A stretch of 64,000 bases of DNA, taken from assembly GCA_017472685.1 (NCBI GenBank), contig JAFUOO010000012.1:1-64000 (forward strand), read 5' to 3'. Source of the stretch: Clostridia bacterium. Lineage in GTDB: Bacteria > Bacillota > Clostridia > UMGS1883. Under the pieces are notes generated by a model. That model was given only the letters and a program-made list of their open reading frames with translations. It did not search any database and had not been told where the DNA came from. Below are positions 35,948-53,878 of the stretch, one piece after another; the stretch's first letter is position 1; every line of letters starts with the position of its first letter. The position numbers were made by a program, and so were the translations under genes.

Positions 35948-36880
35948 ATGATATATAAATCCGTTGATGAATTAATCGGAAAAACGCCTCTTTTAGAGCT
36001 TCGCAATATAGAACGGGAATTCAATCTTGAGTCTAAGCTTTTTGCCAAGCTTGAATACTTTAACCCCGGCGGCAGTGTAAAGGACAGGGTTGCAAAGGCA
36101 ATGCTTGACGATGCCGAAAAAAAGGGGCTTATCAAACCCGGCTCGGTTATAATTGAGCCCACAAGCGGCAATACGGGCATCGGGCTTGCAGCAGTGGGTA
36201 CTGCACGAGGCTACAAGGTTATAATTGTAATGCCTGACAGTATGAGCGTTGAAAGGCGCACACTTATGTCCGCATACGGTGCAGAGCTCGTTTTAACCGA
36301 CGGAAGGCTCGGCATGAGCGGTGCTATTAAGAAGGCGGAAGAATTGGCAAAGGAAATTGAAGGAAGCTTTATTCCCGGTCAGTTTGAAAACAAAGCAAAC
36401 CCCAAGGCTCACTTTTTTGCAACAGGCCCCGAAATATATTCTGACCTTGACGGCAGGGTTGACATTTTCGTAGCGGGCGTGGGTACAGGCGGCACCGTAA
36501 CAGGTGTTGGCGAATATTTAAAGAGCAAAAATAAGGATGTTAAAGTCGTTTGCGTTGAGCCAAAGAGCAGTGCGGTGCTTTCGGGCAAAGCTCCGTCAGG
36601 TCATAAAATACAGGGCATAGGCGCAGGCTTTGTGCCCGAGGTTTTAAACAGAGAAATTTGTGATGAAATTATCCCCGTAAGTGATGAAGATGCCTTTAAA
36701 TGGGGAAGACTAATCGGTAAAAAGCAAGGTGTTCTTGTGGGCATTTCTTCAGGTGCGGCACTGTGTGCAGCAGTTGAGGTTGCTCAAAGAGCAGAAAATA
36801 AAGGCAAAAACATTGTTGTGCTTTTCCCCGACACAGGTGACAGGTATCTTTCAACACAAATGTTTACCGATGAAAAGTAA
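35948..36880 (+). CDS. cysK: Cysteine synthase A (O-acetylserine sulfhydrylase)
   Basis: 310 aa. PLP enzyme making cysteine from O-acetylserine and sulfide. PLP lysine in NPGGSVKDRVA (about residue 44), substrate loop TSGNTGIG, phosphate loop GTGGTVTGVG, and the C-terminal PDTGDRYLSTQMF are all present. GGGAGG precedes the ATG. It provides cysteine for the desulfurase encoded downstream, and both are probably under the adjacent Rrf2 regulator. Confidence 0.95.
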   Translation: MIYKSVDELIGKTPLLELRNIEREFNLESKLFAKLEYFNPGGSVKDRVAKAMLDDAEKKGLIKPGSVIIEPTSGNTGIGLAAVGTARGYKVIIVMPDSMSVERRTLMSAYGAELVLTDGRLGMSGAIKKAEELAKEIEGSFIPGQFENKANPKAHFFATGPEIYSDLDGRVDIFVAGVGTGGTVTGVGEYLKSKNKDVKVVCVEPKSSAVLSGKAPSGHKIQGIGAGFVPEVLNREICDEIIPVSDEDAFKWGRLIGKKQGVLVGISSGAALCAAVEVAQRAENKGKNIVVLFPDTGDRYLSTQMFTDEK

Positions 36881-36885
36881 CTGAA

Positions 36886-37070
36886 GGAAGGATTATAGCT
36901 TGATTTCCAAGCTATAATACCTCCGGTGGATTTAATGTCCATGCGAGAATTTCGCCCGTACAGGCGAAAACGCATATGGACATAATTCACATTATACGCC
37001 TTGCATGCCACTGCAAGTGCGTAAGAGCGAAATTTTTTTCTACTTGTGGCAGAAAGGCTATGTGAATTAT
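36886..37070 (+). ncRNA. Folded leader/spacer before iscS (candidate cis-acting RNA or hairpin mobile repeat)
   Basis: Three successive hairpins fill the space between cysK and iscS. Hairpin A (36886-36924): ATTATAGCTTG / CAAGCTATAAT plus a GGAAGG/CCTCC base. Hairpin B (36937-36981): GTCC-ATGCG / CGCAT-AT-GGAC with inner TTTCGCC / GGCGAAA. Hairpin C (36982-37070): ATAATTCACAT / ATGTGAATTAT with inner GCCT/AGGC and TGCCAC/GTGGCA; its last base touches the iscS ATG and it holds the AGAAAGG ribosome site. An alternative internal stem (36996-37022) precedes a T7 run. I do not recognise a known riboswitch. Confidence 0.5.
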
Positions 37071-38261
37071 ATGAGAGTTTATGCAGATAATGCCGCAACA
37101 ACACGCATGAGTGAAGTTGCAATAAAGGCAATGATGCCTTACATGAGCGAGGTTTACGGCAATCCGTCAAGCCTTCATTCCATTGGTCAGGAAGCAAAGG
37201 AGCATCTTGATAATGCCCGTGCAATCATGGCAAAAAATCTTGGCTGTGAGCCCTTTGAAATTATTTTCACATCAGGCGGCAGCGAGGCTGACAACCAGGC
37301 AATTGTTTCTGCAGCCACGATCGGCGCAAGGAAAAACAAAAAGCACATTATTTCCACAGCCTTTGAACATCATGCTGTGCTTCACACCTTAAAGAAGCTT
37401 GAAAAGCAGGGTTATGAGGTTGAATTACTGGATGTTCACGAAAACGGCATGGTAACAGCCCAGCAGGTGAAAAATGCAATCCGTGAGGATACCTGCCTTG
37501 TTACAATCATGTATGCAAACAACGAAATCGGCTCTGTAATGCCCATTAAGGAGATTGGCGCTGTTTGTAAGGAAAAGGGCGTGCTCTTCCATACAGACGC
37601 TGTACAGGCGGCAGGACACATTAAAATCGATGTAAAAGAGCAGAATATAGATATGCTTTCGCTTTCTGCACATAAATTCCACGGTCCCAAGGGTGTTGGT
37701 GCACTTTACGTAAGACGCGGCATAATGCTTTCCAACATTATCGAGGGCGGTGCACAGGAGCGAGGCAAGAGAGCAGGCACAGAAAACATTCCTGCAATCA
37801 TGGGTATGGCGGCAGCCTTTGAAGATGCCTGCAACAATATTGATGCGCATACAGAAAAGCTCTTGAAAATGCGCGACAGACTTATTGAAGGCTTGTCGAA
37901 AATTCCTCATTCAGTTTTAAACGGTGACAGGGAAAGTCGTCTTGCAGGCAATGTGCATTTCTGCTTTGAAGGTATCGAGGGCGAAGCTCTGCTGCTTCTT
38001 CTCGACATTCAGGGTGTTTGTGCATCCTCGGGCTCTGCGTGCACATCCGGCTCACTTGACCCCAGCCATGTGCTTATGGCGATAGGCAGACCTCATGACA
38101 TTGCACACGGCTCCTTGAGACTGTCTCTTTCAGCTGAAAATACAGAGGAAGAGGTAGACCATATTTTAGCTGTTGTGCCCAAGGTGGTAGCACAGCTCAG
38201 AAACATGTCACCCGTATGGCGTGATTTACAGGAAGGAAGACGAGAATATGTTATACAGTAA
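37071..38261 (+). CDS. iscS: Cysteine desulfurase
   Basis: 396 aa. PLP enzyme that takes sulfur from cysteine. The start is MRVYADNAATTRMSE, the PLP lysine is in SLSAHKFHGPKG (about residue 202), and the persulfide cysteine is in CASSGSACTSGS (about 325), close to the NifS/IscS group. ATG 37071 is chosen because the family begins there; the open frame upstream runs through the hairpin spacer. It overlaps iscU by 14 nt. Sulfur is passed to IscU for cluster assembly. Confidence 0.95.
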   Translation: MRVYADNAATTRMSEVAIKAMMPYMSEVYGNPSSLHSIGQEAKEHLDNARAIMAKNLGCEPFEIIFTSGGSEADNQAIVSAATIGARKNKKHIISTAFEHHAVLHTLKKLEKQGYEVELLDVHENGMVTAQQVKNAIREDTCLVTIMYANNEIGSVMPIKEIGAVCKEKGVLFHTDAVQAAGHIKIDVKEQNIDMLSLSAHKFHGPKGVGALYVRRGIMLSNIIEGGAQERGKRAGTENIPAIMGMAAAFEDACNNIDAHTEKLLKMRDRLIEGLSKIPHSVLNGDRESRLAGNVHFCFEGIEGEALLLLLDIQGVCASSGSACTSGSLDPSHVLMAIGRPHDIAHGSLRLSLSAENTEEEVDHILAVVPKVVAQLRNMSPVWRDLQEGRREYVIQ

Positions 38262-53682: not shown

Positions 53683-53878
53683 TGCGCTCTGCGGTGTGCG
53701 TATTTTCGGGGCACTATTTGAACCAACACTTTTATCTAGGGAGAAAAACTCTCGGTCCGCTGCGTGCAAGCTCTCCCTCGGGAAACCGACGAAGAGAGAA
53801 GCCCATAACCGGAACGGATTTCACCCACCTGCTATGCAGGTTTCAAATAAGCCTCTTTTACGGCATTGCGGGGCATTT
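53683..53878 (+). ncRNA. ssrS: Probable 6S RNA
   Basis: About 195 nt without a supported ORF. The ends pair (GCTCTGCGGTGT with GCATTGCGGGGC, using G-U pairs), and a second helix joins TATTTGAACC to GGTTTCAAATA. A central hairpin CTCTCGGTC / GACGAAGAGAG and a small ACCTGC-TAT-GCAGGT hairpin on the 3' strand complete an extended rod, as in 6S RNA, which binds the housekeeping RNA polymerase. The segment TTTGAACCAACAC agrees with clostridial 6S sequences as I recall them. Exact ends are estimates. Confidence 0.6.

Follow-up and report, generated by a model that had tools for sequence, protein, structure and literature searches.

A probably mobile three-hairpin repeat with a putative two-state ribosome-binding site in front of iscS and unrelated genes of Clostridia

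The cysteine desulfurase gene iscS of a Clostridia bacterium (GCA_017472685.1) is preceded by a strongly folded spacer, raising the question of whether this spacer is a regulatory RNA belonging to the gene or a repeat that landed in front of it. The window, a stretch of 64,000 nucleotides (contig JAFUOO010000012.1, positions 1 to 64,000), carries at this locus genes for an Rrf2 regulator, a cysK-like enzyme, iscS, a NifU/IscU-like gene and nadA. An initial annotation, made from the letters alone, described a three-hairpin spacer of 185 nt between cysK and iscS, and offered as explanations either an RNA that regulates Fe-S assembly in cis, in response to cysteine or Fe-S state, or a hairpin-type mobile repeat. 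The three hairpins lie where it placed them; the gap between the genes is 190 nt, because cysK ends at 36880, and the 185-nt segment itself is indeed folded, with an energy of -69.6 kcal/mol against -41.3 +/- 3.7 in dinucleotide shuffles (z -7.7; 0/200). The features of the locus are as follows.

35948..36880, + strand: cysK-like PLP enzyme (PF00291), the upstream neighbour, outside the element
36886..36898, + strand: host flank, the native Shine-Dalgarno (SD) and spacer of iscS (GGAAGGATTATAG), known from the empty-site orthologue in G003; now the lower left arm of hairpin A
36892..36918, + strand: hairpin A, 11 bp (ATTATAGCTTG / CAAGCTATAAT), arms 36892-36902 and 36908-36918
36920..36929, + strand: linker CCTCCGGTGG, able to pair with the native SD upstream; in many, not all copies
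36936..36982, + strand: hairpin B; two-base AT bulge in the 3' strand, conserved; lower stem covarying
36982..36992, + strand: hairpin C, 5' outer arm ATAATTCACAT, partner of 37060-37070
36995..37023, + strand: alternative (anti-sequestering) hairpin TACGCCTTGCA..TGCAAGTGCGTA, conserved in other copies
36998..37011, + strand: SD-sequestering stem, 5' strand (GCCTTGCATGCCAC); CAT in the iscS copy against TCT/TCC in the family
37046..37058, + strand: SD-sequestering stem, 3' strand, with the element's ribosome site (GTGGCAGAAAGGC), nearly invariant in 99 copies
37060..37070, + strand: hairpin C, 3' outer arm ATGTGAATTAT; the last bases of this arm contain the right end of the element
37071..38261, + strand: iscS, aminotransferase class V (PF00266), start conserved in orthologues

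As first described, hairpin C reaches the iscS start, its last base adjoining the ATG at 37071, and holds the motif AGAAAGG (37051-37057) in its 3' strand.

The segment is one copy of an interspersed element of ~150-170 nt, consisting of hairpin A, the bulged hairpin B, and hairpin C with AGAAAGG. The own-genome search proposed with the initial annotation gave eight good matches, seven of them, besides the iscS copy, at unrelated loci (E below 1e-6), and further copies were found in congeners, in two members of the same family and in a different family. Of 391 genomes sampled from the class, 55 have matches to a covariance model of B and C, the weaker matches including other repeat types that have only hairpin B in common. 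A pattern scan of named genomes found at least 119 contig stretches of other Clostridia, nearly all from gut or rumen assemblies; the pattern required an intact hairpin C, so that decayed copies elsewhere may be under-sampled. Among the matches listed is one cultured strain, Ructibacterium gallinarum DSM 107454. Most of the genomes are draft assemblies, and gene calls are simple ORF calls. The element has no match in the plasmid or phage collections, and no description of it was found in the literature searched. Screening of the window against 4227 Rfam 15 families gave no match at the gathering threshold except, elsewhere, a 6S RNA (RF00013, 87.6 bits, 53683-53878 on the + strand); at permissive thresholds the element had no match at E <= 5 and its type II relative, described below, none at E <= 2, in line with the initial annotation, which recognised no known riboswitch class.

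Copies of the element stand directly before start codons. An ORF start lies within 80 nt of the motif end in 117 of the 123 copies listed, against 46% of random positions, and GGCTATG is most often 9 nt away from the start codon, a sharp peak (68/115 copies). Eight copies lack an ORF start in a stricter window: four are internal to tandem arrays, in two the contig stops directly after the ATG, and in two only a short frame follows the ATG. No copy in this sample points away from a gene. On the upstream side, an SD-like motif occurs within 22 nt of hairpin A in 60 of the 66 copies with a recognised A core (random stretches, 23%), and in most of those 66 it lies 3-6 nt upstream of A. The downstream genes, named from their translated starts and in some cases checked by profile, are unrelated (uvrB, cysE, hlyIII, trpS, purC, dut, mnmE, recX, feoA, prmA, dnaK, nusG, asnB, murG and others), and no common pathway, such as would make the coherent gene set of a riboswitch, was found among them. 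At two loci (L146, L249) the gene behind the element has a start resembling that of a large serine recombinase (513 aa).

Insertion of the element can be seen from orthologous leaders that lack it. It is absent from iscS in the congeners G003 (95% identical protein) and G002 (92%) and from the iscS orthologues of nine other inspected relatives; the leader in G003 reads GAAGGATTACAG-ATATG, compared with GGAAGGATTATAG-element-TATATG here. Seven such filled/empty contrasts were obtained (iscS, uvrB, trpS, hlyIII, argF, cysE and a hydrogenase-like gene), the filled argF site carrying the type II 3' module. At most compared sites the element parts the native SD from its ATG, and at cysE it lies upstream of the SD. 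No terminal inverted repeat or target duplication was recognised by eye in the filled/empty pairs or at tandem junctions, the exact ends of the element being uncertain by a few bases. Copies also cluster by host genome: for 25 of 45 copies the most similar other copy came from the same genome, where 3.9 would be expected and 2000 permutations gave no more than 12, and the resemblance extends to same-genome copies standing at unrelated genes. Multiple copies, filled and empty sites and clustering by genome support the suggestion that a mobile hairpin repeat had landed in the operon. Tandem arrays occur at L197:5041-5585 (four copies, period about 159) and at L229 (at least two copies); in these arrays the next copy begins behind the ribosome site of the preceding one, in L229 right behind its AGAAAGGCTATGG. 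The arrays could have been enlarged by tandem duplication instead of repeated insertion.

The letters of hairpin A vary between copies with pairing retained, the consensus in other copies being TAACGTGA..TCACGTTA or TAGTGTGA..TCACACTA. Swapping arms between copies shortens the pairing by about 1-2 bp on average, a small loss because the shared core (TAACGTGA or TAGTGTGA) accounts for most of the stem; inverted duplication of the host flank at insertion is a possible origin of hairpin A. In the cysE leaders of two species (L003 and L027), the arms of hairpin A differ by compensatory double changes (TATA/TATA and TGCA/TGCA in the stem). A leader peptide starting at a GTG in hairpin A was considered and rejected, the reading frames not being conserved; reading of the sequences revealed no conserved frame through the element, and the frames differ between copies.

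Pairing in B and C is supported by compensatory change. The lower stem of hairpin B covaries (GTCC/GGAC, GCCC/GGGC, GCAC/GTGC), and in the outer helix of hairpin C changes on both sides occur at all eight modelled pairs (99 copies). Within hairpin C, the SD-sequestering stem is paired in 97.1% of cells, with double changes at 14 of 21 pairs (99 copies), a level that 0/500 shuffles reached and that no slid register approached. The competing stem which the initial annotation placed at 36996-37022 is real (here 36995-37023); this alternative hairpin reaches 82.8% paired cells, whereas slid registers do not exceed 56%. Double changes occur at four of its pairs, a number reached by 138/500 shuffles, so that its support comes mainly from conservation. 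Shuffling its 3' half made it less stable in 70% of copies. In folding predictions at 37 C, the nascent RNA without the 3' strand forms the alternative hairpin in 91 of 96 copies, and in the complete RNA the closed SD is the more stable state, with a median advantage of about 12 kcal/mol; in the iscS copy this advantage is only about 1-2 kcal/mol, because CAT replaces the usual TCT/TCC in the sequestering strand. Folding predictions and comparative counts describe two exclusive, conserved folds that would control the SD, as in a riboswitch. Two exclusive folds had been anticipated, with a different pairing, between loop bases GCGAAATT (37027-37034) and AATTTCGC (36948-36955) of hairpin B; these letters are present, but the loop of hairpin C is variable in other copies, so this pairing is not a conserved switch, and the conserved alternatives are the SD-sequestering stem and the 36995-37023 hairpin. 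An intrinsic terminator formed by the latter with the following T7 run is not favoured, as ~ten bases separate stem and T run, and other copies have no T run there.

Template switching at quasi-palindromes, or a role of the hairpins as DNA in transposition, could also produce compensatory change, which alone is therefore no proof of an RNA role. The conserved SD and the alternative hairpin, which lies outside the main stem, argue for a probable role in translation. Because compensatory change and a conserved alternative fold are found in the copies of a repeat, the regulatory and mobile readings, which the initial annotation had set against each other, are not exclusive, and its interpretation is partly supported: the mobile repeat carries a conserved two-state ribosome-binding site.

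The SD of the element is probably used, judging from its retention in decayed copies. In four of these (L009, L010, L036, L038) only the last ~20 nt remain, always with AGAAAGG, directly before the ATG, and with no other SD-like motif. The hydrogenase-like gene has AAGGAGA before its ATG in G001 and G002; this motif is lost in G000 and G003, and G003 retains only TTTGTGGAAGAAAGGCTACGTGAGTTATG of the element. The AGAAAGG-ATG spacing of about 13-14 nt is an oddity, being longer than canonical.

Hairpin B, with its AT bulge and covarying stems, is common to three repeat types. Type I is the iscS-leader element. Type II (leaders L005, L006, L063, L064, L066-L069 and L073) has the same hairpins A and B, followed by an unrelated 3' module (AATCTCTTATC..GATAAGAG / GGCGGCGGAATGGAG-N6-ATG) that stands directly before start codons, with GGAG six bases from the ATG, and has the same sequester/anti-sequester layout. 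In type III (L011, L030, L034-L037, L070, L075, L076, L150 and L184), hairpin B is part of MITE-like repeats, which have ends such as TCCTATAAAGCAA / TTGCTTTATAGGA and often lie beside terminators. The recurrence of hairpin B in three sequence contexts suggests that they may have a common trans-acting partner. No larger insert flanked by B and C, such as would point to a related autonomous element with a transposase, was found within the loci examined.

With a probability of about 0.72, we take this to be an interspersed, MITE-like repeat, non-autonomous, which lodges in translation leaders and carries a two-state ribosome-binding site. It is present in multiple copies and absent from orthologous sites of congeners, its 3' end abuts the start codon, and at most compared sites it has come between the native SD and the ATG. 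A new SD (AGAAAGG) comes with hairpin C, and both the sequestering stem and a competing hairpin are conserved across species. By restoring a ribosome site, the element would make its own disruptive position in leaders tolerable. As the RNA is being made, the upstream hairpin (36995-37023) would be the earlier to form, so that the SD emerges unpaired; the C stem, being more stable, could then take up the SD and reduce initiation if neither ribosomes nor a factor prevented this. In the case of iscS, the copy may have drifted towards the open state.

Several known systems resemble this element in part. Bacterial MITEs are likewise short, non-coding, hairpin-rich and multi-copy, with insertion seen from empty sites, but the present element is confined to leaders in this sample and has a conserved two-state RNA fold, and because terminal inverted repeats and target duplications, unlike in MITEs, were not recognised, it is MITE-like in its working and is not filed as a MITE. 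REP/BIME and IS200/IS605-derived palindromic elements have bulged hairpins with a conserved bulge and no evident target duplication, features shared by the present element, which differs in having no associated Y1/RAYT and in lying upstream of genes and carrying an SD. Translational riboswitch expression platforms hold the SD in one of two exclusive conserved stems (sequester/anti-sequester), as does the present element; by contrast, the latter is mobile and has no recognised ligand core, Rfam match or coherent regulon, and for lack of such a regulon it is sequester/anti-sequester-like in its working and is not filed as a riboswitch platform. The pneumococcal BOX, RUP and SPRITE repeats are small, interspersed and strongly folded, BOX being multi-module, and are thought to be non-autonomous and to affect co-transcribed genes; they are over-represented between convergent genes (PMC3049150). 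The likeness to these small folded interspersed repeats is one of kind, with no sequence relation claimed, and the present element differs in standing directly before start codons, where it probably replaces the ribosome-binding site.

The element may instead be a true regulatory leader, controlled by a ligand or a protein and spread by selection on regulation and not by selfish mobility, a possibility that we take seriously but regard as doubtful. Conservation of both exclusive folds and of the SD extends over many families, the type II module has the same sequester/anti-sequester layout in unrelated sequence, and all positions among the matches listed are 5' of genes. Such a leader would be hard to reconcile with the lack of a common pathway (uvrB, trpS, purC, dut, mnmE, dnaK, nusG, asnB, murG, cysE, iscS), the patchy presence at orthologous genes between congeners, the clustering of copies by genome and the lack of an invariant, ligand-pocket-like core outside the SD stem. 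A further, rather unlikely reading is that of a transposable riboregulator, whose insertion would be actively directed at regions of translation initiation, including, in the L229 array, the gap between its own SD and the ATG, placing captured genes under a common two-state ribosome site, possibly with a trans factor acting at hairpin B.

It is also quite unlikely that the hairpins act mainly as DNA, as single-stranded recognition structures for an HUH (Y1/RAYT-like) transposase, with secondary effects in RNA. The bulged hairpin B with covarying stems in three repeat types and the lack of an obvious target duplication would fit such a role, but Y1 transposases (PF01797) are absent from the incomplete assemblies G000, G055 and G087, which have 6-11 copies, and are equally common in genomes without the element; a Y1 transposase was accordingly rejected as the mobiliser, and recognition as DNA alone leaves the SD conservation, the alternative hairpin and the leader-only location unexplained. 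That the cysK-iscS operon has a riboswitch of its own, responsive to Fe-S or cysteine, as the initial annotation had envisaged, is effectively ruled out: the element stands before iscS and, elsewhere, before cysE, feoA and the hydrogenase-like gene, but it is missing from iscS of congeners and other inspected family members and recurs at many loci, mostly before genes without a link to sulfur or iron.

The common view of short interspersed repeats is that they land harmlessly between genes. The present element, read here as a MITE-like settler of translation leaders, occurs in many gut Clostridia at start codons of genes that are essential or housekeeping, and probably swaps their ribosome-binding site for one with two possible folds. 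It raises the question of how insertion becomes confined to translation leaders, and the many natural filled/empty pairs offer a means of measuring how a mobile element rewires translation.
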